The notes beneath the pieces were generated by a model. That model was not told where the DNA came from. It worked only from the letters and a program-made list of their open reading frames with translations, and ran no database searches. From a virus, in IMG/VR virus record IMGVR_UViG_3300007510_001540, positions 1 to 27,307 of that record: a DNA stretch of 27,307 nucleotides. One strand, given 5' to 3'. Position 1 is the stretch's first letter. Each line of letters begins with the position of its first letter. Shown here piece after piece: positions 6,589 to 27,307 of this stretch. A program made the translations under genes and the position numbers.

Positions 6589-6879
6589 ATGAATAACACA
6601 GCGACAAACCCCATTTTAGACAGTAATAATATAGTTGAAGGTACAACATGTTTTCATGAACATGATAAGCTAAATATTTCATGCAAGAAAGCATCTTGTA
6701 AATATTGGATAGATAGCAAAGACAGTAATAACTGCTCTATGATAGCAGCCAGACACGGCCCGATGACTTTACAAGAAATAGGCGATATATTCGGTGTGAC
6801 TAGAATGAGAGTGTGCCAAATAGAAAAAGCTGTAATTCAAAAGCTAGCAGTCAAGACCGGAAAAATATCAGATTTATGA
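6589..6879 (+). CDS. Small sigma-70 region-4-like DNA-binding protein (96 aa)
   Basis: One of only two plus-strand genes seen. The C-terminal half (about 60-92) is a sigma-70 region-4-type helix-turn-helix: MTLQEIGDIFGVTRMRVCQIEKAV closely follows the LxEIGxxxGVTRERVRQIE signature. The first half has Cys/His residues (CFHEHDKLNISCKKASCKYW, then a later Cys) that could bind a metal. There is no region 2, so it cannot be a whole sigma factor. It could bind a promoter -35 element or act as a transcription co-factor, as small late-gene sigma-like proteins do in other phages. AGGA lies nine bases before the ATG. Its stop overlaps the end of the convergent FtsZ-like gene by six bases. Confidence 0.8.
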   Translation: MNNTATNPILDSNNIVEGTTCFHEHDKLNISCKKASCKYWIDSKDSNNCSMIAARHGPMTLQEIGDIFGVTRMRVCQIEKAVIQKLAVKTGKISDL

Positions 6880-8085
6880 TTCAATGCCGCCAAGTAATGT
6901 AATAGCTATTAGTCCCGGAACGGATTCATTAACATAGATTCCTGAGAATAATGTCTCAGTTCTGCCACCGACATATGAAAGAGCTGCTTCTAATTTTTTG
7001 CTAACCACTGGATCATTTGCCATGTTAGATGTAACTACTAGTAACATAGCTCCAGTAGCTATCGATCCTCGTGGGGCAGAACACGGCGATGATTTGATAC
7101 AACCCTGAAATAAGGAAGATCCTAAGTCTCTAATGTTAGTATCTCTAGCTATAGTACTACCCACAACCATTCTTCCTGGTGTACCCAAACATCGTTCTAA
7201 GTCTTTAGTGTCAAATGATTGAATAGGCGAACTTTCTGATGAGAGTTTAAATATTTGCGCCATTAACTTAGCAAAATTTCTATTAGCAGACGGATACAAA
7301 TCAAGCATCCCTACCTTGCCTCTGAGCAATTGAAGTTGTCGTTCATTGTCAATTACAATATGGGGATGTCTAGAAACATCTTCGATTGTAGATTTATAAT
7401 TTGATGATATCGTAGGATTTAGTAGTTCTTGAGCAGATGGTTTTGTTATAACATAGACAACCTTCCCAGTTGATTCACATGATTTTAGGTGTCTATCAAT
7501 AGAATTGTGTAGTGTTGAACACGCACTACCTGTACCACCTCCGCCACCCGCTAGAACAAATACCCAATCAACCGGCCCAATTCGTGTTCTAAGCGCGTCT
7601 TCTAATAGAGTACTATTTTCCTTGAGCACTTGACGACCCACATCTATATCTTTTCCCACACCGTCAGCACCAGGCATAAGTAAAAAGTTTTCGGGCGCTA
7701 CACCTGCAGGCTGATCTTTGACTGTTGTATTTACCAATATTGTTTTCGAAAATCCTAAATCTAGAAATGCTTTAGCTAATTTACCACCACCTCCGCCAAC
7801 ACCAATAAATGCACACTTAATAGCACAAGCAGATGAATTCTCAGGTAACATCCGTTCATCTGCTTCTACGGGATCATCGTCATATGCTTCGACAAAGTCA
7901 AACCCAAGATCATCCGCAGGGTTTATGTAAGTGTCTTCTTTTGTATCTTCTTGTCCAGCCATTTCTTTTTCCTTGTCGTTTATAACTAAGCTATTATGTG
8001 TCTCTATAACATTGTTGATGATCTTGGGTTTGGTTACAACTGCATTGCTTCTTTTTGAAAACAAACTTTTTGTTGATGAAGCCAA
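6874..8085 (-). CDS. FtsZ/tubulin-like GTPase
   Basis: The glycine-rich loop GVGGGGG (about 95-101) and the tubulin/FtsZ signature loop AGGGGGTGS (about 179-187) are both present. They are flanked by FtsZ-like strands (DWVFVLAGG and VVYVITKPS). In the T7 synergy-loop region, SFDTKDL (about 290-296) aligns with FtsZ NLDFADV: both aspartates are kept and Asn becomes Ser, so polymerisation-dependent GTP hydrolysis looks possible. The first about 90 residues are a polar, acidic extension. The listed start is TTG with AGGA ten bases upstream. The ATG at 7962 has AAGGA at better spacing and may be the true start. Phage tubulins (PhuZ, TubZ) position DNA or capsids, but here FtsZ-like motifs are closer. 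Role unknown. Confidence 0.82.
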   Translation of the reverse strand: MASSTKSLFSKRSNAVVTKPKIINNVIETHNSLVINDKEKEMAGQEDTKEDTYINPADDLGFDFVEAYDDDPVEADERMLPENSSACAIKCAFIGVGGGGGKLAKAFLDLGFSKTILVNTTVKDQPAGVAPENFLLMPGADGVGKDIDVGRQVLKENSTLLEDALRTRIGPVDWVFVLAGGGGGTGSACSTLHNSIDRHLKSCESTGKVVYVITKPSAQELLNPTISSNYKSTIEDVSRHPHIVIDNERQLQLLRGKVGMLDLYPSANRNFAKLMAQIFKLSSESSPIQSFDTKDLERCLGTPGRMVVGSTIARDTNIRDLGSSLFQGCIKSSPCSAPRGSIATGAMLLVVTSNMANDPVVSKKLEAALSYVGGRTETLFSGIYVNESVPGLIAITLLGGIES

Positions 8086-8246: not shown

Positions 8247-8608
8247 TGGTGGAGACGAGGAGAGTCGAACTCCTGTCCAAGATAACGTTAAATTCAAGTC
8301 ATTCACAAGTTTATTTAGCTTATTCCCAAACTAAAAAGGTAGCAACAAAATTCCCATTCCTATGTTGCCTCGGATTCCACCTGTTTCCAGGGTAACCATT
8401 TTTGATTTGTTATTTTCATAGGATCTCTACCTATTATTCAATATTGGGTAATAAGGTTATTGAAAACCCCACTACTAAGCTGCTAGAGCTACGTTGTAGA
8501 AATTATTGTTATTAGCAATTATTTTTTTGATAAATCTTTTAGCTCGAATCATCATTAGAGCACTTGCACTATCCTTCTAGACTACCCTGTCGAAACCGGT
8601 GCGTCCCC
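8247..8608 (-). ncRNA. ssrA: tmRNA, one-piece, tag ANNNNFYNVALAA
   Basis: Read on the minus strand, the 5' end GGGGACG pairs with CGTCTCC just before an encoded ACCA, forming a 7-bp acceptor stem. Its third pair is G-U, the alanine identity element. The 5' half has GGTTTCGACAGG and the 3' half a T-arm (AGGAGTTCGACTCTCCT), both typical of tmRNA. The tag frame begins at GCT (8516) and encodes ANNNNFYNVALAA, ending in two TAG stops (first at 8475-8477). The hydrophobic ALAA end matches the proteolysis signal recognised by ClpXP-type proteases. Length is about 362 nt. It follows the Hc1-like gene by 17 bp with no obvious own promoter, so it may be processed from a longer transcript. Confidence 0.95.
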
Positions 8609-12026: not shown

Positions 12027-13976
12027 TTAGTTATCTCGCCAAAGATTGTTACTAGCATACGTCAGAATCTCTTCAGCGCTATGTTCATTATAACCATAAT
12101 CGTCAATTAGCGTCTGTACCATTTCAGAATATTTTTTCTGTTGGTCATCATCTCTGGTTTTAGATTTTGTAACAATTCTAGCCATATCTTTGACTGAGCC
12201 TATTAGATAATTCTCTATAGCTTCTTTGAGCGGCTCATAACTTTGATAATTGATTGTTTCTTTGCGTCTCATTTTTGCAAACATATAAGCAGTAACATCA
12301 CTTCTGAATCCATCACGTGCAGACCCTATAATACCAATTTGCTCTTCGATAATCTTCATGAAGTGTTCGTCGGGAGATCGCTCTTCTTTCGTAACTTTAT
12401 CTTTCATTTTTTGACGTGTTGTGTAAGCTTCAGCATTATCCAAGTATGTATCAAATAAATTCTGAGCCTGTTCTGAGTAAGCTGATATGAATGCTTTAGC
12501 AATTTCTGTTTCTAGAATTTTCAAGTATTCTTCTCTAACAGTTTGCTGAATGATTTCTAGACACTTAGTCTTGAATTCTTCATTGATAATCTGTTCTTTG
12601 ACTTGCTTGATAACACTATCTATAATCGCTATAGGTGTTATGATATTTTTGTCAGAGTCAGTTAGTGCATTATCTATAGCTTTCATTATGAATCGTGTTG
12701 ATATACCTTTCATCCCCTCATCGCTAGACTCTTCTCTTAGATCTTCAATGTCTACCTTCTTTACACGACCTTTTTCAATAACTTCATCACCGTTATATAT
12801 TTTCATCTTTGTAAGTAGATCACACTTGCTAGAGGGCTTAAGTCTAGAAAGTACAGAGAACATGCTAGCAACCTCTAGAGTATGCGGCGCAATATGGGCG
12901 TCAAAATCAGACCTACTAAGAATTTTCTCATAAATCATGACTTCTCTATCTAATTCTAAAATATAGGGAACATTGATCTTAACAATTCTATCCATAATAG
13001 CTTCGTTAGTATGCTCACTCTGGAATCGATTCCACTCTGATTCATTACAGTGTGCAAGAATAACACCGTCAAAGTGCAACATGTCATTCTTTCCAGGTGA
13101 TGGGATTCTTTTTTCTTGTGTTGCTGTGATAATGGTGTGCAAGAATTCTATTTCGTTCTTGAAAACCTCAACTAACTCTACAATCCCACGATTACCGACA
13201 TTGAATGCACCGTTAAGTGATAGAACACGTGGGTCATCTTCAGAGTACTTATCAAGCTTAGATATATCCTCTGTACCAATCAAAACTCCTACATCCTGAC
13301 TATTTGCGTCCATTGGTGGGACTGATGCAATTCCTCTCCGGCCTCGCTGAGAAAATGTTGTTTCAACAACAGTCATGTCTTCATATTTTCCATCATAGTC
13401 TTCTAGAAGGTTCCATCTAGCTACTGGACTTATATCTCCATCGATCGATACACCTAGCATGCTATTGAACTGATCCCTAAGACTTCTTGGAATTAGCTGT
13501 AACGGCTCACCTCTTTGAGGATCATTTTCTAAGTGATAGTAAGTAAATCCCTCTAGGGAGCTTTTGATATGCTCTGTAAGCGCAGATTTTCCTGCACCAA
13601 CTGGGCCCATTAGAAGTAGAACTTGTCGACTCTCTTCTCCCTTACTAGCAGCTGAATTCAAGAATCTCATTATTTTTGAGATTACTCGTTCCATACCAAA
13701 AAACTCACTATCAAAATAATCATATATTTTGATATTATCACCACCGAAGATCTTGTTTTTTCTAGAGTCACTGCTATCCATTGTTCGGACACCATGGGAT
13801 TCGAGTGCATTTCGAAGTCTTTTGTGTGACAGTATTACGATCTCCGGATTCTTCTTGACGAGATCTAAATACTCTAAAAATGTGCCTCGAAATTTCTTTT
13901 CTTTTCTACTGTCAGAACGCTGACTATGAATAATGTCTAAGAATTCTTTTTCTGTCACAGCTTTTTTCTTACTCAT
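12027..13976 (-). CDS. prkA: PrkA/YeaG family AAA+ protein (649 aa)
   Basis: The full-length PrkA layout is present. The N-terminal AAA+ domain has Walker A GPVGAGKSA (about 124-132). A long middle region includes VEVFKNEIEFLHTIITATQEKRIPSPGK and FDGVILAHCNESEW, both conserved in PrkA. A helical C-terminal region follows, which in this family carries a kinase-like fold. PrkA was described as a serine kinase. Later work reports ATP-dependent protease activity and a role in sporulation in Bacillus, and its Escherichia homologue YeaG acts in stress and starvation with YeaH. AAGG lies seven bases before the ATG. Length is normal for the family, with no sign of decay. It follows spoVR in the same operon. 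Confidence 0.95.
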   Translation of the reverse strand: MSKKKAVTEKEFLDIIHSQRSDSRKEKKFRGTFLEYLDLVKKNPEIVILSHKRLRNALESHGVRTMDSSDSRKNKIFGGDNIKIYDYFDSEFFGMERVISKIMRFLNSAASKGEESRQVLLLMGPVGAGKSALTEHIKSSLEGFTYYHLENDPQRGEPLQLIPRSLRDQFNSMLGVSIDGDISPVARWNLLEDYDGKYEDMTVVETTFSQRGRRGIASVPPMDANSQDVGVLIGTEDISKLDKYSEDDPRVLSLNGAFNVGNRGIVELVEVFKNEIEFLHTIITATQEKRIPSPGKNDMLHFDGVILAHCNESEWNRFQSEHTNEAIMDRIVKINVPYILELDREVMIYEKILSRSDFDAHIAPHTLEVASMFSVLSRLKPSSKCDLLTKMKIYNGDEVIEKGRVKKVDIEDLREESSDEGMKGISTRFIMKAIDNALTDSDKNIITPIAIIDSVIKQVKEQIINEEFKTKCLEIIQQTVREEYLKILETEIAKAFISAYSEQAQNLFDTYLDNAEAYTTRQKMKDKVTKEERSPDEHFMKIIEEQIGIIGSARDGFRSDVTAYMFAKMRRKETINYQSYEPLKEAIENYLIGSVKDMARIVTKSKTRDDDQQKKYSEMVQTLIDDYGYNEHSAEEILTYASNNLWRDN

Positions 13977-14016
13977 TGGTTACCTTACCCTTGGTGATTA
14001 ATTGATTTTTCATAAC

Positions 14017-15330
14017 TCAGATCTCCCAGATGTCGCCTTCGACAATTGTGTATAATTTGACGACGTCACCCCATAAAGTTGTTAAGTGTACAACAACCTC
14101 GTCAGCATGTGAAAGATCTAAATCTCTACCATCATGCTCATGACGTAATATTAGCATGTCACCGTCATCAATACTATCAATATAGATAACGGGTATACCA
14201 TTAGTCCCAACATTGTTGATTAAGTCACTTCTCACACTTTTCCATCCTTCATCATTTGATATTTCATCAATGACAAATTTGTCCTTTTGTTTAGAAAAAC
14301 TAAACAATCCTAACTCGTAACAGTCATTTTGTGTAAGGTATTGTCGTAGAAAAGATGCATCATGGCATGTTTCTCTTGCAATAAAGCACTCATCTATTCC
14401 GTGACGCTCTTCAATTCTTTTGAACATTTCAAAACCCAGATGGTAAGGATTTAGACCACCAATATGCGGTCTAATAACTTGATTATGACTTTTCAAAAAA
14501 GGAAGATGATATTCTTGTGGAAGATCAAGTGTATGCATTAGTCTATAGTGCCAGAATGATGCCCAGCCCTCATTCATTATTTTTGTCTGAATTTGAGGGA
14601 TAAAATATTGTGATTGGTTCCGGACAATTTCTAGAATATCTTTTTTCCAGTCCGGAATCTTCGGCGCGTGATTAATGACAAAATTGAGTAAATCATACTC
14701 AGGCTCAAGTGGTATATCATCTAGATCAAAATCTTTGTACTTCCCATCAACATCTTCTTTTATCAATTTGGTATATTTTTCTCTGAGCTCTTCTTCAGAC
14801 GGTCGATTAATATGATATCTATGAGTTTGGAATTGAATCGCATGCGCAGCATCTAGAACTTCTTCTACTAACACAATTCCAATAGTTGGATCTTCAATGT
14901 ACGATTGAATTCTTTTTCTAGATGATCGCATTCTTTGAACAATAGACTTGGGCCCAGTATGACTAAACATACGATTATTTTTGAAGAAATCAGAGTGACC
15001 TACACAGTGACACATAATCAGCAACTGAAGGTACGCAGCATTTTCACGCATGAGATATGCAATCGAGGGATCAGAGTTTATTATAAGCTCGTAAGGGAGC
15101 CCGGACATGCCCAAATTGTATTGCTGTTGAGTTCTTTCAAATGACTTTCCAAAACTCCAATGACCGTAATGAGAAGGCATACCATGGTATGACATGTGGC
15201 CTATCATTGACAAGTAATCACATACCTCGTAATGTATGTCAAACCAATCTAATCCAGCTTCTTCAGCTGCAATCTTTATTTTATCATCCCACTCTTGAAG
15301 AAATTTGAAATCCCAGTCTTCTAAAAACAT
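14017..15330 (-). CDS. spoVR: SpoVR/YcgB family protein (437 aa)
   Basis: SpoVR signatures are clear: WDFKFLQEWDDKIKIAAEEAGLDWFDIHYEV at the N-terminus, then YHGMPSHYGHWSFGKSFER, and CHCVGHSDFFKNN. Next come EGWASFWHYRLMH with conserved His residues and LNPYHLGFEMFKRIEERHG. The family is needed for spore cortex formation in Bacillus and is linked to stress in enterobacteria, but its biochemistry is unknown. The frame is open to an ATG at 15387. The chosen ATG at 15330 overlaps the yeaH stop by one base (TAATG), places the conserved block at the N-terminus and has coupling logic, whereas the upstream ATG lacks a ribosome site. Length is near normal. Confidence 0.95.
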   Translation of the reverse strand: MFLEDWDFKFLQEWDDKIKIAAEEAGLDWFDIHYEVCDYLSMIGHMSYHGMPSHYGHWSFGKSFERTQQQYNLGMSGLPYELIINSDPSIAYLMRENAAYLQLLIMCHCVGHSDFFKNNRMFSHTGPKSIVQRMRSSRKRIQSYIEDPTIGIVLVEEVLDAAHAIQFQTHRYHINRPSEEELREKYTKLIKEDVDGKYKDFDLDDIPLEPEYDLLNFVINHAPKIPDWKKDILEIVRNQSQYFIPQIQTKIMNEGWASFWHYRLMHTLDLPQEYHLPFLKSHNQVIRPHIGGLNPYHLGFEMFKRIEERHGIDECFIARETCHDASFLRQYLTQNDCYELGLFSFSKQKDKFVIDEISNDEGWKSVRSDLINNVGTNGIPVIYIDSIDDGDMLILRHEHDGRDLDLSHADEVVVHLTTLWGDVVKLYTIVEGDIWEI

Positions 15331-16532
15331 TATGTATTGTCCTTGCCTATCATTTTTTTGCCCAATAGTTTCTGAAACCCTGGCCATATATCATGCTTAT
15401 TGAAAACTTTGACAATTTTAAAATTTCCGCCACTAAGTACTTCATATACAGATGACATTCTAGACTCGCTAGTTGTCCACTTAATTCTCTCATCCTCAGG
15501 CTCAATTTCGCAGTAGCCAAATAGTTGGCTTTTGTCTTTTAGCTTTTGAGCTTCTTCTAGAGTTTTTTGAGTATCACTAGACCAGTTATCACCATCAGAG
15601 CATTGAAAAACATATACGTTCCACAATGATGGGTGATAACGCTTATCAATAATATTATTAATCTTGACTAAACCTGACGAGACTATTGTACCGCCACTAT
15701 TACCACGCTGAAAAAACTTTTCTTCATCAACTTCATATGCTTCTGAGTCATGTGCTATAAATATGACGTCGACTTTTTCATAGCGATGTCTAATGAAATG
15801 ATACAATAGAAAATAGAAGCTTCTAGCTAAAAATTTCTTTTCTTGTGTCATCGAACCGGACACATCCATGAGGAAAAATATTACAGCGTTACTAGATTCT
15901 TTATTTGTAACCTTGATGTGCCTGTACTGTAAGTCGTTTTCATGAAATGGAAAGCTCTCTTCATCGTTTCCTACACTGCCAGATAATTTATTTTCATGGT
16001 TAGTTGCTTTCTGCCTCTTGATTTTGTTTATAATCGTCTTTTTCTTATCAAGTCGCGGCCGAATTCCATTCTTTCTATAGCCATGGCGCTTAATTTTTTC
16101 ACCCACAATATTCTTGAGAGTCTTTTTTTCTAGATCAGGTAATTCTAAATCATTGAACAAGTAGTATGATAATTCCTCGAGGGTAATTTCTACCTCGTAA
16201 TACTCTTCACCAGCTTCATTCCCAGGCTCACCCGATCCAGGTGCTTGTTGGGGACTACCAGCATCGCCAATAACTTGACCTTTTTTGATGTCCTTGCCGG
16301 GAGCAGAACCTACGTTCTTGTTAGTTTTGTTGTCACCGTAGATAAATTTATATTCTTTGATACCACGGACCGGGATTTTTATTTTTTTTGTCCCATCTTG
16401 ACCAATAATAGACTCATCTGCGACAATATGGTGTACACCATCTCTAATCGCTCTCTCAATTTTCTTTTTGTGACGACGTCTGTCAGATGCTGATCGATCT
16501 GCAACTCTCTTATGTTCACGAAAAATTGACAT
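15330..16532 (-). CDS. yeaH: YeaH/YhbH family protein with von Willebrand A domain (400 aa)
   Basis: The N-terminus MSIFREHKRVADRSASDRRRH and the following basic block are typical of YeaH (UPF0229, YhbH). A linker rich in Gly/Pro/Glu lies at about 70-110. The C-terminal half is a von Willebrand A-like domain with the metal-site motif DVSGSMT at about 223-229 and FIAHDSEA after it. In bacteria YeaH is encoded with PrkA and often SpoVR, and acts under nutrient and other stress. Here it is the first gene of the minus-strand operon yeaH-spoVR-prkA. AGAGG stands before the ATG. The 95-bp gap upstream holds an inverted repeat and probably the promoter. Confidence 0.95.
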   Translation of the reverse strand: MSIFREHKRVADRSASDRRRHKKKIERAIRDGVHHIVADESIIGQDGTKKIKIPVRGIKEYKFIYGDNKTNKNVGSAPGKDIKKGQVIGDAGSPQQAPGSGEPGNEAGEEYYEVEITLEELSYYLFNDLELPDLEKKTLKNIVGEKIKRHGYRKNGIRPRLDKKKTIINKIKRQKATNHENKLSGSVGNDEESFPFHENDLQYRHIKVTNKESSNAVIFFLMDVSGSMTQEKKFLARSFYFLLYHFIRHRYEKVDVIFIAHDSEAYEVDEEKFFQRGNSGGTIVSSGLVKINNIIDKRYHPSLWNVYVFQCSDGDNWSSDTQKTLEEAQKLKDKSQLFGYCEIEPEDERIKWTTSESRMSSVYEVLSGGNFKIVKVFNKHDIWPGFQKLLGKKMIGKDNT

Positions 16533-21484: not shown

Positions 21485-21581
21485 AGTTATCCTCGTAGCA
21501 AGTCTATCTTTTTACACAAAATCGTACACTAATAGTTGGGCTACATATTGACTATAAACATACGAAAACATGGAGACAAAA

Positions 21582-22448
21582 ATGATTAAGGAGTATTCTC
21601 GCTATATGTTTGTAATGCTATTACCGGTATTAGCAGCATTGACAGGATGTCTAACTTCGAAAAGCTGTACAGATTTCTATCCTCAGTACGCAGTAGAAAC
21701 TCAGTCTGCACCTCTAAATTATAATGCATTTACACAAATAAGAGTCGATATTGCAATGACACCGACTGAATGCTATAATTCTCTATTGCAAGAACCGTGT
21801 GATGACATGCTTCCACATTTCCCCACAATCGAAGTAACGTCGACGGGAAGCGGCGCAGTAATTTCTCATGAGAATGGAAAGACATACGTGCTGACAGCAG
21901 CTCATGTTTGCTGGGTTGAGCCGTACGAGACTGTACAAAACAACACGATGATTTTAGAGATACTGTCGATATCTAATATCAATCTAGTACTGTATGATGG
22001 AACTGTTGCAACAGGCAACGTATTTTATGTTGATGAAGAAAGAGACGTATGTCTTATTTCCACCCCGGGTAGACTTGGCCAGCCGCTACCTATAGCAGAA
22101 AACAATCCTGTACAGGGGCAAAAATATTATAACATGGCAGCGCCGTACGGAATATTCTCTCCTGGAATGACACTATCGTTTGACGGATATTATTCAGGTA
22201 TGGATGAAGGCCTTCACTTCTATACTATTCCTGCCAGACCAGGTAGTTCTGGTTCGGCTGTCATTAATTCTCATGGAGAGATAGTTGGAATTATAACAAT
22301 GGCTAGCACAGTCTTTGAAACAATGTCAATTGTTACAAGCTTGTCGTCAATTATAGATGCTGAAAATATGATTCAAGCAGATTCAGATATATCAAATGCA
22401 AATACTGATTGGATTATTATGAGATCACCCGAATCACCCTCTGAGTAA
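21582..22448 (+). CDS. Trypsin-like serine protease lipoprotein (288 aa)
   Basis: The N-terminus has a signal peptide (YMFVMLLPVLAAL) and a lipobox LTGC with the lipid Cys at residue 23, so it should be tethered to a membrane. The protease fold shows all three catalytic elements: His108 in VLTAAHVC, Asp155 in ERDVCLIS, and Ser223 in RPGSSGSAVINSHGEIVGI. There is no PDZ domain, so it is closer to simple V8/trypsin-type proteases than DegP. Several extra Cys may form disulfides. The start is the ATG at 21582 with GGAG six bases upstream, not the ATG at 21570. It is on the plus strand, convergent with the next gene and divergent from the PMM-like gene, so it has its own promoter. Confidence 0.9.
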   Translation: MIKEYSRYMFVMLLPVLAALTGCLTSKSCTDFYPQYAVETQSAPLNYNAFTQIRVDIAMTPTECYNSLLQEPCDDMLPHFPTIEVTSTGSGAVISHENGKTYVLTAAHVCWVEPYETVQNNTMILEILSISNINLVLYDGTVATGNVFYVDEERDVCLISTPGRLGQPLPIAENNPVQGQKYYNMAAPYGIFSPGMTLSFDGYYSGMDEGLHFYTIPARPGSSGSAVINSHGEIVGIITMASTVFETMSIVTSLSSIIDAENMIQADSDISNANTDWIIMRSPESPSE

Positions 22449-22747: not shown

Positions 22748-22791
22748 ATTATCGCAATGTATTTGAATGAATTCCAGCTTATTGTGATAAT
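22748..22791. promoter_or_regulatory. Inverted repeat upstream of the Lys-rich gene
   Basis: Arms ATTATCGCAA (22748-22757) and TTGTGATAAT (22782-22791) match at nine of ten positions, with a 24-base loop. The right arm overlaps the last codons of the metalloprotease gene. It lies about 46 bases before the GTG at 22702. There is no T-run on the minus strand. Similar repeats stand upstream of several other genes in the window. Confidence 0.3.
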
Positions 22792-23369
22792 TCCGTTACA
22801 TGTAAACCTGTCGTTGATTGACCAATTTGTTGAAGCACAGGGTTCATAAGGTGCCCGGGAATATTATAGTGTGAGTAACCAAGTGCATGACCCAACTCAT
22901 GAATTAATATTCGAATATCGCGGCGACTGTCATATGTCAACATAATAGCTGAGCCTACAATATTAGTCTCACCACTTTTTTTTACGCCGTATGATATTAT
23001 TGAGTTACTAAGCTTCCGGAAGTCGTAGTTTTGCTCTGGATTGACAAAGTATATCGCTCCTAACCAACCATCATAAAGCTCATTAGAGTCACACAGAGTC
23101 ATACTGACCTCACGGAATCGGTGTCCTAGCTGTTCCCAATGTGATAGTGCTCTGACAACGATAGCCTTATCCATCATCAACTCAGTGCAGATAATAATAT
23201 CCGGAGAAGATGACCACGTGTGATCTCTTTCAATAGTGTATGATACCGGTATGTCTGAACTTCTAGCCTGATATATATGAACTAGTTCTTGGCTGCTACT
23301 ATGATCGACATATTTTACATTCGGCGCAGCGAACAACATTAGAAAATATGTTACTAGTGATGAATTCAT
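22779..23369 (-). CDS. Secreted metzincin-type zinc metalloprotease (196 aa)
   Basis: The zinc motif is HELGHALGYSH (His157, Glu158, His161, His167): HExxHxxGxxH, the metzincin/matrixin consensus. It is followed by LMNP with Met175 as the Met-turn. A short N-terminal hydrophobic segment (SLVTYFLMLFAAP) probably acts as a signal peptide. The middle (IYFVNPEQNYDF, then the zinc helix) fits a matrixin-like catalytic domain with no prodomain or hemopexin. Length is that of a bare catalytic domain. It lies next to a small secreted protein in the same operon and near a lipoprotein serine protease. Target could be envelope or extracellular protein, not decided by sequence. Confidence 0.88.
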   Translation of the reverse strand: MNSSLVTYFLMLFAAPNVKYVDHSSSQELVHIYQARSSDIPVSYTIERDHTWSSSPDIIICTELMMDKAIVVRALSHWEQLGHRFREVSMTLCDSNELYDGWLGAIYFVNPEQNYDFRKLSNSIISYGVKKSGETNIVGSAIMLTYDSRRDIRILIHELGHALGYSHYNIPGHLMNPVLQQIGQSTTGLHVTELSQ

Positions 23370-24563: not shown

Positions 24564-24944
24564 TTACAGTGAATTTTTCTGTTTACTGTAAGACTCATTA
24601 TCACTAGTAATTGACTTACCAGTACAGTGCTTATTGCATGTTCTAGACAGTGTACATGGGATATTGTGAATCCAGCAGTAACCTATACCTGCTTTGTTTT
24701 TCATAGCTGCTTGAATACGAGGCGAGCAATCGTACGAAGCGCAATTTCTGCATGATAAAATCTTAAGATCAGTTCTATCATCTAGATCGATAGTACCATA
24801 ACAAGACTTTTCTATAGCTAGATTAGTATTGACACAAGAAATCTGTTCGTCTATAATTGCCAATGGCGTTGGAAACATTGAAATTGTAATATCTTGAACT
24901 AGACTTTTGAATAAAGACTCGATGCTTTCTTTAGTAGGTAACAT
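24564..24944 (-). CDS. Cys-rich small protein (126 aa)
   Basis: Nine cysteines are present, mostly in pairs: CRNCASYDCSPR, then GYCWIHNIPCTLSRTCNKHC near the C-terminus. This suggests one or two zinc sites or disulfides. The N-terminus is a plain helix (KESIESLFKSLVQDI), so it is not obviously exported and zinc is likelier. No family recognised. Its ATG lies inside the last codons of the 37-residue MKITK peptide (14-base overlap), suggesting coupled translation. It is the last gene before the Hsp20 region. Confidence 0.62.
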   Translation of the reverse strand: MLPTKESIESLFKSLVQDITISMFPTPLAIIDEQISCVNTNLAIEKSCYGTIDLDDRTDLKILSCRNCASYDCSPRIQAAMKNKAGIGYCWIHNIPCTLSRTCNKHCTGKSITSDNESYSKQKNSL

Positions 24945-25044
24945 ATATACTTAGCAAATTATGCACATCAGAAATCGACTGTCGAAGTAACCTAGCCTTC
25001 TTTTCTCTAATAATTCTTCTTAGCTGGTGTTTTGTAATTTTCAT
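24931..25044 (-). CDS. MKITK-family peptide, shortest member (37 aa)
   Basis: This short frame encodes MKITKHQLRRIIREKK followed by about 20 residues (ARLLRQSISDVHNLLSIYVTY). The first 16 residues match the shared N-terminus of the neighbouring genes in both protein and DNA, including Ile12-x-Glu14. It is too short to hold a folded body and may be a remnant, a leader peptide for the Cys-rich gene it overlaps, or a real mini-member. Confidence 0.6.
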   Translation of the reverse strand: MKITKHQLRRIIREKKARLLRQSISDVHNLLSIYVTY

Positions 25045-25080
25045 TTAATTACTCTGTAACGTTATATGGGATATATGTTA

Positions 25081-25599
25081 TTAGATCATCTCTGCAATAT
25101 ATGTTATCAGATCATCTTCACTATCATCAAATTCCCAGACTAGCTCGTCCCACTCATCAGGAGCAAATGAATATTTTGCTCCTGAAGCAAGATCCCAAGC
25201 GATACTCTGCATATCTACGCCAGGGTTATCAGCAGAATAATCTGCCCCAGCATCATCAGCCCATTGATCGAGACGGGCTTTGAGGTTGTCAATGTTTAGC
25301 CTGGCTCTTTCAGCTTCACGTTCTTTATAAGCTCGCTTACGATTTCTATCATTGCGTTTACCCATCACTTCATTATCAAGCTTATCCCAATCTTCGCCAC
25401 TAACATAAATTGCATCGTCGTCTAGATCATCTTGTAGCGATTTGATGCCTAAGCGCTTAGCCAATTCAGGCCATGCAGCTTCGGGGGTATGTGAGCTTAG
25501 TGGTTCGTCACCAAATTCAAACACCTGGCCGGTTTCATTATTAATAATGTCAAGCTCTTCTTTAATAATTCTTCTGAGTTGTCTCTTTGTAATTTTCAT
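25081..25599 (-). CDS. MKITK-family protein, 172 aa
   Basis: The N-terminus MKITKRQLRRIIKEELD is the family cassette. The body is acidic and helical (ERARLNIDNLKARLDQWADDAG) and ends in a strongly acidic segment (DEWDELVWEFDDSEDDLI). I do not recognise the body. Its ATG overlaps the stop of the preceding family member by one base (TAATG), so translation is coupled. If the N-terminal peptide were removed after Glu14, the mature protein would be about 158 residues and very acidic. Confidence 0.75.
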   Translation of the reverse strand: MKITKRQLRRIIKEELDIINNETGQVFEFGDEPLSSHTPEAAWPELAKRLGIKSLQDDLDDDAIYVSGEDWDKLDNEVMGKRNDRNRKRAYKEREAERARLNIDNLKARLDQWADDAGADYSADNPGVDMQSIAWDLASGAKYSFAPDEWDELVWEFDDSEDDLITYIAEMI

Positions 25600-26003
25600 T
25601 ATAACACATCCAATACTGCGCCGACGATATCATCAACGACGCGTCGAGCTCTTTGTAAGTCACGATCATCACCTGGGTTCATGCCCATAGTCATCATGTA
25701 CTTGTCAACAAAGTCCGCTACTGCTTTTGTTATTGCCTGCTCATCTGCCCGAAGCGCGGGATTACCAGTTCCTCTCTCGTTGAGCCTCACCTCTGTTACG
25801 ACATCAGGAAATTCGCCGGAAGCAAGAAGCTTTTTAGGGTCTGAGCCTGTATCAACCAAGATATCGAATACCTTCTGCTGCTGCTCAGGATCCATCTTTC
25901 CGGAATCCAAAGGCGGCTCGTCCAGCGGTGCTGCACCGCCAGTAAATCTTCCCCACTGAGCTTCTCGAATAATTTTTCTGAGCTGTTTTCTTGAGATCTT
26001 CAT
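25599..26003 (-). CDS. MKITK-family protein, 134 aa
   Basis: The start is placed at the ATG at 26003 (MKISRKQLRKIIREAQWG), 11 codons inside the longest open frame, because the family cassette begins exactly there and CAGG precedes it. The N-terminus is the most diverged copy (Ser, Arg and Lys changes) yet keeps Ile12-x-Glu14 and then Ala, the best match to a T4 prohead-protease site. The body has Pro/Gly-rich (PLDEPPLDSGKMDPE) and helical parts (DEQAITKAVADFVDKYMMTMG). Function unknown. Confidence 0.75.
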   Translation of the reverse strand: MKISRKQLRKIIREAQWGRFTGGAAPLDEPPLDSGKMDPEQQQKVFDILVDTGSDPKKLLASGEFPDVVTEVRLNERGTGNPALRADEQAITKAVADFVDKYMMTMGMNPGDDRDLQRARRVVDDIVGAVLDVL

Positions 26004-26007
26004 TATA

Positions 26008-26712
26008 TTACCTGTCGTCGTGATACTGGCCATCATGTAGTTTCATTTCTATTTCCTCGATGGCTTGAGCGATGGAAAACGAAATAGCATTTTCAAGTTC
26101 TTGAGTAGCGTATACAACCTGCTGTTCCCAAACACCTTTTTCGGTGCGAGTCATTGCCTCCGAGCCCGGGACAGGGCGTGCAAAGGCATCAGGCTCTTCA
26201 TCATAAAGCTTCATCATATCATTATAAAATAAGTCAGACATACGTTCAGCACATTTGTCTGCTGCCTCTTCAAAATGGCGTATATCTGCAACTGATTCGC
26301 GGAGAAGCTTAGCTTTCTCTTCCTTGATGATTCTATGAAGCTGTCGTTTTGTAATTTTCACTTTTCCCTCAGGAAGAGTCCGTCCTGCGTCGTACTCTCT
26401 TCTTGCGTGTGATACTTCACGATTAACATCGTGCTTATCGAACTCCATGGCTGAGGACATGTCTGTAATGATGTCTTCAGCTGTGGGTCCTTGGTCTAGC
26501 CCTTGATCCACCAGGAACGTCGCGAGAACAGACGATGAGTTGGGCCCACTAGATGTACCCATATACTCCATGGCCCATTTCTTATACTCGTCGACCAAGT
26601 TTTGAATATTTCCGCCTGGCACATTGGTAAGAGCCCCAACGATGTCTGGTACACTCCCGCGGGGCATTGCCTCTGATATCATTCTTCTAAGCTGTCGTTT
26701 CGTGATTTTCAT
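26008..26712 (-). CDS. MKITK-family double protein, two cassettes in one frame (234 aa)
   Basis: The protein begins MKITKRQLRRMISEAMPRG and has a second cassette at residue 118: VKITKRQLHRIIKEEKAKLL. The two halves are 117 residues each and their bodies are unrelated. The internal Val codon is GTG with GAGG placed suitably upstream, so the second half can be started on its own. It therefore looks like two family genes fused by loss of the intervening stop, or a gene producing both a long and a short product. The body of half two is helical with acidic residues (MSDLFYNDMMKLYDEEPDAF). Confidence 0.72.
   Translation of the reverse strand: MKITKRQLRRMISEAMPRGSVPDIVGALTNVPGGNIQNLVDEYKKWAMEYMGTSSGPNSSSVLATFLVDQGLDQGPTAEDIITDMSSAMEFDKHDVNREVSHARREYDAGRTLPEGKVKITKRQLHRIIKEEKAKLLRESVADIRHFEEAADKCAERMSDLFYNDMMKLYDEEPDAFARPVPGSEAMTRTEKGVWEQQVVYATQELENAISFSIAQAIEEIEMKLHDGQYHDDR
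26359..26372 (-). promoter_or_regulatory. Candidate internal ribosome site and GTG start
   Basis: On the minus strand TGAGGGAAAAGTG presents GAGG a few bases before an in-frame GTG (26361). The GTG begins the second MKITK cassette of the 234-residue protein. It would start a 117-residue product covering 26008-26361. Confidence 0.5.
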
Positions 26713-26726
26713 GTGAGTTCTCCTAT

Positions 26727-26951
26727 TTACCGTCGACCGGTGAAGTCGCTGATGTCGGTACCGTATTCCTCGTTTTCCATCTCATCAGCGATAGTCCTGA
26801 GTACATCGATGACATACCCCTGATTGGCACCGCCGGCGGCCTTAAAAGCATCGACAGCATTCAAGAGCGCCGCCATTTCTCGAGCGCCCTCGTTAAGCTT
26901 TTGCTTCTCTTCTTTAATGATTCTTCTAAGCTGTCTTTTTGTAATTTTCAT
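26727..26951 (-). CDS. MKITK-family protein, 74 aa
   Basis: The N-terminus is MKITKRQLRRIIKEEKQKLNEG, followed by a short helical body (AREMAALLNAVDAFKAAGG) and an acidic end (ENEEYGTDISDFTGRR). A weak GGGGA precedes the ATG, one base after the stop of the upstream member. It is the shortest multi-helical member and is unrecognised. The body has higher GC than the genome core. Confidence 0.75.
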   Translation of the reverse strand: MKITKRQLRRIIKEEKQKLNEGAREMAALLNAVDAFKAAGGANQGYVIDVLRTIADEMENEEYGTDISDFTGRR

Positions 26952-26952
26952 T

Positions 26953-27216
26953 TTAGTCCCCTAAATCGATCAAGGCATCAATAATGCCTCCCCAGCCGCT
27001 ATATTCTAGTTCAATAACGGCCTCTGCTAGTCTCATGAAGTCTCGGTCGAATCCGTCGACGAGCGGATCAAGGTTAGCCATCTTCTGTGCGAGCATTGAT
27101 TCGACGCCACTAGGATTTAGTGGGTATGTTGGTGGGAGATTCGGGCCAGCTTCTCTCAATACTCTAGCCTTCTCTTCTTTGATAATTCTTCTAAGTTGTC
27201 TCTTTGTAATTTTCAT
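26953..27216 (-). CDS. MKITK-family protein, 87 aa
   Basis: The N-terminus is MKITKRQLRRIIKEEKARVL, then a Pro-rich stretch (AGPNLPPTYPLNPSG) and a helical end (DFMRLAEAVIELEYSG). AGGAG lies six bases before the ATG. No function is recognised. Like its neighbours it shares only the first 20 or so residues with other members. Confidence 0.75.
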   Translation of the reverse strand: MKITKRQLRRIIKEEKARVLREAGPNLPPTYPLNPSGVESMLAQKMANLDPLVDGFDRDFMRLAEAVIELEYSGWGGIIDALIDLGD

Positions 27217-27233
27217 TTTATTCTCCTGAATGA

Positions 27234-27307
27234 TTACATAAATCGCCGGTTCGCGGCGTCGAAGTCGACGTCGTAACCTTCGGTGTCGTCGATAGGAGAA
27301 TTCGCGT
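27234..27307 (-). CDS. C-terminal end of a further gene, probably another family member
   Basis: Only the last 23 codons before the TAA at 27234 are visible (ending DFDAANRRFM). The frame runs off the right edge. Placement 18 bases upstream of the next MKITK gene and the acidic, small-residue style suggest it belongs to the same array, but its N-terminus is not in view. Confidence 0.5.
   Translation of the reverse strand, partial: ANSPIDDTEGYDVDFDAANRRFM

Follow-up and report, generated by a model that had tools for sequence, protein, structure and literature searches.

A shared N-terminal peptide on tandem genes of T4-like marine phages as a probable capsid-targeting propeptide

In bacteriophage T4, internal proteins reach the core of the prohead by way of propeptides of 10–19 residues, and gp21 cleaves behind L/I-x-E; one of the packaged proteins, Alt, is an ADP-ribosyltransferase (PMC9026906, in the parts accessible to us). 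The accessible text of a second paper describes the T4 internal proteins Ip1–3 as having the leader alone in common and as each inhibiting different type IV restriction enzymes, with at least ten internal proteins reported across T4-related phages (PMC12373910). In phage P1, according to the available excerpt, the first 30 residues of DarB suffice to package a reporter (PMC9024508), and in phiKZ and SPN3US, which have ejection proteins, many head proteins are described, in the portions at hand, as cut after Glu by a diverged gp21 homologue (PMC9026906, PMC5694885). Here we analyse a 27.3-kb virus fragment (IMG/VR record IMGVR_UViG_3300007510_001540, positions 1 to 27,307, called the window) that carries an array of genes whose products begin with one shared short peptide, the tag, followed by differing bodies. 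We consider it probable, with good confidence, that the tag is a lineage-specific capsid-targeting propeptide of T4-like marine phages with a much enlarged packaged set. The support is sequence-based and consists of the modular I-x-E tag, gp21 and gp23 genes, matching sites, tag-like N-termini in the head operon and the swapping of tags.

Like the capsid-targeting sequence (CTS) of T4, the tag is a short N-terminal leader on otherwise unrelated proteins and ends in I/L-x-E, and a gp21-family protease and a gp23-family capsid protein occur in the same virus. Unlike the CTS, its sequence is unrelated: on a profile of the tag, T4 ipI, ipII and ipIII score -32, -28 and -34, in the range of other T4 genes, and we therefore propose that the tag works like a CTS and claim no descent from that of T4. 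Where T4 has three Ips, the viruses described here have 4–38 tag starts per contig, acidic bodies, a second, interchangeable tag and tandem fusions. DarB of P1 is similar in that its N-terminus carries a signal for entry into the head, but in the excerpt available its signal is described for one protein of ~250 kDa. The phiKZ motif is S/A-x-E, whereas residue 12 of the tag is never S or A (n = 186), and most of the SPN3US propeptides discussed in the accessible text are long, unlike the one short tag here. Searches of the capsid-targeting, internal-protein and jumbo-phage literature listed T4, P1 and SPN3US papers, and no listing described this tag. A text search for MKITK, thin on subscription journals and bioRxiv, returned one irrelevant paper; LREYIRELL, KITKRQL, LRRIIKEE, RQLRRII and LKRIIREE had no match in a search covering few subscription journals and no bioRxiv, and the literature search found no proteome of the phage Immuto. 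The packaging principle is known; the scale, the tag sequence and the interchangeable tags did not turn up in print in these searches. The tandem cargo is a further notable feature.

Open reading frames (ORFs) together with a peptide search show that a single 14-residue peptide occurs seven times in the six minus-strand genes at 24931–27216, and the gene starts resemble MKITKRQLRRIIKEE in all six ORFs. They are, with a slash marking predicted cuts:

26953–27216, minus strand: 87-aa tagged gene; tag at 27175–27216; second I/L-x-E candidate VLRE/A, residues 19–22
26727–26951, minus strand: 74-aa tagged gene; tag at 26910–26951; second candidate site LNE/G, residues 19–21
26008–26712, minus strand: 234-aa tagged gene; first tag at 26671–26712 (MISE/A); in frame with an internal second tagged cassette
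26008–26361, minus strand: 117-aa internal tagged cassette; GTG codon at 26361 with AGGG just upstream; LLRE/S
25599–26003, minus strand: 134-aa tagged gene; tag at 25962–26003 (IIRE/A)
25081–25599, minus strand: 172-aa tagged gene; tag at 25558–25599; no second site at residues 18–32
24931–25044, minus strand: 37-aa tagged gene; tag at 25003–25044 (IIRE/K)

The original prediction, made from the letters of the window, had named these six genes and seven cassettes, and all are where it put them, the seventh lying inside the 234-aa ORF at 26361. It had also claimed that every cassette keeps I12-x-E14, which holds in 7/7 copies (IKEE in four, ISEA, IREA and IREK in one each). A degenerate tag pattern matched 6/7 copies in the window, against no match at all in 100 dinucleotide-shuffled versions, and the peptide search matches 7/7. 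Its statement that the genes share the peptide and nothing else needs one amendment: the bodies are otherwise unrelated in pairwise comparison, but in the 37-aa gene a stretch of 12 residues beyond the tag is similar to the 117-aa internal cassette (blastp-short E 3.6e-5), and the 37-aa gene may thus be a truncated copy of it. The 117-aa cassette itself could be read from a start of its own within the frame, or else be a second cargo fused to the first. AlphaFold2 gives the 172-aa protein a separate tag helix at residues 5–16, a low-confidence linker at 17–37 and then a helical body; compared with solved structures, the fold has no convincing match (best E 2.1), and this body family has tag-carrying relatives in other contigs. 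PHROGs matches of the window’s tagged genes are weak and to families of unknown function (best E 4e-4).

The full length of the window is 99.97% identical to parts of two longer contigs, G001 (71 kb) and G002 (137 kb), which are the same virus. The original prediction had suggested looking for the tag on other genes, and the search was productive: the array runs on past the window in G001, with four further tag genes directly upstream and one more distant, and nine other contigs that were read whole carry tagged genes as well. Eleven contigs were read whole, among them G003, picked as a relative of the window’s tubulin-like gene and not by its tag. Ten of the 11 hold 4–38 tag starts each, nested starts included: G001 12 (one nested), G002 7, G004 26, G006 25, G007 16, G008 36, G009 25, G012 23, G013 38 and G020 4, with 0 in G003. 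Codon-block shuffles, scored without a start-codon filter, gave 0–1 tag matches for G002 and 0–2 for G004. The tag DNA pattern occurs in 104 stretches among 2.9 million viral contigs; 257 billion bases of bacterial and archaeal genomes gave seven stretches in four contigs, all labelled as metagenome-assembled genomes, and one of these contigs has 101,404 bases, exactly as a tag-bearing viral contig. Among 50,697 phage records, none matched the 22-residue tag or either of two bodies, which is weak evidence for so short a query. All loci pooled give 502 distinct tagged proteins, 454 after redundancy removal, with a median length of 106 aa; they fall into 270 blastp groups, 207 of them singletons, where the comparison covered proteins of at least 50 aa and the members of one group of 97 are probably joined through a chain of weak matches. 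A 306-kb sequence binned as Methylococcaceae, NHDW01000006.1 (L291, L295, L296), matches the tag pattern eight times and is possibly that of a giant phage.

Among 186 starts picked on residues 1–9 only in the 11 contigs, 174 have [IL]12-x-E14, and in most of the other 12 the site is shifted or begins with V12; over all 186, position 12 holds I 178 times, V 6 times and L twice. In the larger set of 454 tags, for which the selection pattern demanded E14, residue 13 is K or R in 388, and conservation drops after residues 14–15 with a smaller peak at 19–22, a KARLLxE segment. Where residue 15 is Ala, Ser or Gly, a further [ILM]xE lies at residues 18–32 in 46/123 tags; where it is another residue, mostly Glu, a second [ILM]xE, usually ending at 21–22, is found in 235/331 (Fisher p 1.4e-10). 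Directly behind this second site there is an enrichment of Q (5.1-fold), S (2.4-fold) and A (1.5-fold), whereas L, P and R are seldom found. The mature N-terminus had been predicted at residue 15; given the second site in 235/331 tags without Ala, Ser or Gly there, mature N-termini would often start near residue 22–23 instead.

PF03420 (T4 gp21, S77 protease) and PF07068 (T4 gp23) both have matches above cut-off in one and the same set of 16 of 22 records, including G002, whose protease gene is at 107668–108282. The gp21-like prohead protease, whose absence from the genome was to speak against the prediction, is therefore present in a contig near-identical to the window. I-x-E-type sites, also sought on scaffold and capsid, appear on both. 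In 9/9 capsid N-termini read, [VL]L[KR]E/[ASQ], a predicted cut site, lies near residue 60; in gp23 of T4 the last residue of an I/L-x-E motif is number 65. In 14 distinct capsid contexts, collected with a pattern that demanded L-x-E, x is R in 10 and K in 4 and the next residue A in 10, Q in 2 and S in 2. At the x position T4 has Ala in two internal proteins, IPII and IPIII, and Thr in both IPI and gp23; tag and capsid site, which here mostly have K or R, thus depart from T4 in the same manner. The scaffold gene, identified by position, is richer in I/L-x-E than its own shuffles, ranking 15/120 in G002, 3/376 in G004, 2/323 in G006, 1/367 in G007, 3/348 in G008, 8/356 in G009, 3/341 in G012 and 6/236 in G020.

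When called genes without the tag were scored at their N-termini with a tag profile, the two best of 115 in G002 were small genes at 108750 and 109238, between the protease and capsid genes, with scores of 22.4 and 7.0 and a third best of -4.7; eight genes lie in that interval, and the chance of both top ranks falling there is 28/6555, or ~0.004. The equivalent pair ranks 5 and 7 in G004, 5 and 6 in G007, 1 and 3 in G008, 4 and 6 in G009 and 4 and 6 in G012, and the genes outranking it include array tags that the pattern missed. As the contigs are related, these ranks are not independent tests.

Two further features of the head genes were seen. An ORF of 1884 aa stands just before the protease gene of G002 (L137:1179-6833) and, judged by eye, is perhaps a portal with intein-like inserts. 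G004, G005 and G017 each have two adjacent gp23-type capsid genes.

A second N-terminal peptide, approximately M[KN]xLR[EQ]YIRxLLxE, where the final E was demanded by the pattern, stands on 49 distinct proteins among the fetched sequences. None was found in the window’s own virus; it occurs in G004, G006, G007, G008, G009, G012 and G013, on larger and more enzyme-like bodies. The same body can stand behind tag 1 or tag 2, with 68% identity over 187 aa in one pair, and in the GDVILTGRFKNK family tag-1 and tag-2 bodies are 60–73% identical. An HD-domain enzyme is found behind a divergent tag 1, behind tag 2 (38% over 172 aa) and untagged (66% over 193 aa), and its homology starts just past the tag. 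Since a body can have either tag or neither, each tag is a module that can be removed, and the pattern suggests that tag 1 and tag 2 are equivalent. Internal tags occur in 15/202 tagged ORFs of the 11 contigs, a count that includes the one virus of G001 and G002 twice; six of the 15 begin at a codon other than ATG, GTG or TTG, which shows that there are genuine tandem fusions.

Most bodies are orphans, short and without recognised domains. The longest 100 of 167 non-redundant candidates of 120–600 aa matched 12 Pfam families, with one member each (e.g. HD_4, LRV/HEAT repeats), and PADLOC on 100 tagged proteins gave weak single matches only (best E 0.0016). Of 10 tag-2 proteins scanned, four matched, to Zeta_toxin/AAA_33, HD, PAP2 and DUF2608/HAD. 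One tag-2 family has R34, S75 and E128-x-E130 invariant in 4/4 aligned sequences, which we take to be the R, S, E-x-E catalytic signature of ADP-ribosyltransferases. It has no Pfam match; in structural comparison most of the matches listed are, judged by title, proteins of that fold, with Z up to 6.8, and Foldseek alone puts serpins first. A resemblance of this family to ADP-ribosyltransferases, the activity of T4 Alt, is suggestive only.

Taken as a mechanism, the basic N-terminal helix (about residues 2–12) would bind the prohead scaffold core, and the phage’s gp21-type protease would cut either behind residue 14, the end of I-x-E, or behind the second I/L-x-E at ~21–22, which would free the body inside the head. 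The bodies would then most likely exit with the DNA and act on the host, like T4 Ip1–3 and Alt; within the packaging-propeptide reading, injection is the least supported step. A wider version, to which we would give slightly less than an even chance, is that marine T4-like giant phages use an open cargo code: at least two interchangeable N-terminal labels, both ending in the site of the prohead protease, would admit nearly any protein to a set of dozens of packaged proteins, which would be delivered with the DNA to the host. The set would then span an ADP-ribosyltransferase-like protein, P-loop kinases, HD phosphohydrolases, orphans and tandem polyproteins cut in the head. If the tag does act in this way, its presence at the N-terminus would by itself identify orphan phage proteins by the hundred as packaged and probably also as injected. 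Many a ‘hypothetical protein’ would then belong to a class open to testing, and candidates for counter-defence in uncultured marine phages could be shortlisted. The packaging principle of T4 would also prove to have been extended to a larger scale elsewhere, through a signal unrelated to that of T4, and there would be new short signals with which to load phage heads with proteins.

The T4-style scheme of capsid targeting that was originally predicted is supported in part, by the gp21 and gp23 genes, the two tag-like genes between them and the matching predicted sites; what does not carry over is the T4 tag sequence, and the bodies are acidic. The charge, on average -6.6 per 100 aa, is one of several observations that weigh against a packaging propeptide; T4 IPII and IPIII bodies are basic, at about +5.5, in a comparison that leaves out Alt and for which a basic body is not a strict criterion. 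Among tags without Ala, Ser or Gly at residue 15, 96/331 have no [ILM]xE at 18–32, including those of the window’s 172- and 37-aa genes, and the dependence of the second site on residue 15 may in part be due to descent from one longer form of the tag. Five of 21 tag-bearing records, of 71–135 kb, have no gp21 or gp23 match (the sixth record without one, G003, itself has no tags); one of the five, G001, comes from the virus that G002 also represents, and for the remaining four it is not proven that the records are fragments. Among the tag-bearing records, G019 (135 kb), with many tags and no gp21 or gp23 match, is a possible counter-example. The head-operon pair is also not uniform: in G006 and G013 only its first gene is in the top 14 (ranks 1 and 4), and in G020 the sole tag-like head-operon gene is directly upstream of the protease (rank 4). 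Finally, late expression of the arrays is unsupported, because no promoter motif links them to the head genes: a T4-like late promoter, TATAAATA, had no consistent strand bias in the 11 contigs, and [AG]ATA[CT]TTA[AGT], commoner on the coding strand, lies at most 80 bases upstream of only two counted tag genes, both in G008.

Three other explanations have to be considered, all of them unlikely. The least improbable accepts that the tag targets the prohead core and takes the bodies as structural or core fillers, for size control or DNA packing, rather than as injected effectors; such a role would suit both the conservation of two tag-like genes in the head operon and the many short orphans without recognised domains. 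Against it, the bodies are very diverse and are less often common to contigs than other genes: 75/186 have homologues in other contigs as against 1045/1976 other genes of at most 322 aa (p 0.0012), a comparison set that may contain spurious ORFs, with G008 and G013 as an exception (17/34 tagged bodies shared). Some bodies are moreover enzyme-like (HD, P-loop kinase, PAP2, HAD, ADP-ribosyltransferase-like), though mostly behind the second tag.

We rate it as a little less probable again that the peptide is a docking helix for a replication compartment, a tubulin-like filament or a host factor, unrelated to packaging. The separate helix that AlphaFold2 gives for residues 5–16 and the tubulin-like gene in the window fit such a role, which leaves the conserved I-x-E, the match to the capsid site and the tag-like genes between protease and capsid unexplained. 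That the repeat acts as DNA or RNA, as a translation-start enhancer or recombination cassette with the peptide as a by-product, is already disfavoured and very improbable. In the sets collected it always stands at gene starts and in tandem arrays, but the search demanded a start codon; six internal tags sit at codons that are not usual starts. One peptide, KITKRQLRRIIKEE, is encoded by 28 different DNA sequences, and the codon-position entropies of the tag are 0.52, 0.41 and 1.08, the third position being the most variable; selection therefore acts on the protein.

The window holds other genes outside the array. A phage-encoded tmRNA gene with the tag peptide ANNNNFYNVALAA lies at 8247–8608 on the minus strand, and at 12027–16532 on the same strand the phage carries a cluster of the bacterial stress type, in which genes for PrkA kinase, SpoVR and DUF444 adjoin. 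The tubulin/FtsZ-like gene that served as the query for relatives is at 6874–8085, minus strand (E 3.6e-7, just below the Pfam cut-off). Two possible secreted phage proteases are a trypsin-like protease with a signal-like N-terminus at 21570–22448, plus strand, and a matrixin-like M10 peptidase at 22779–23369, minus strand.

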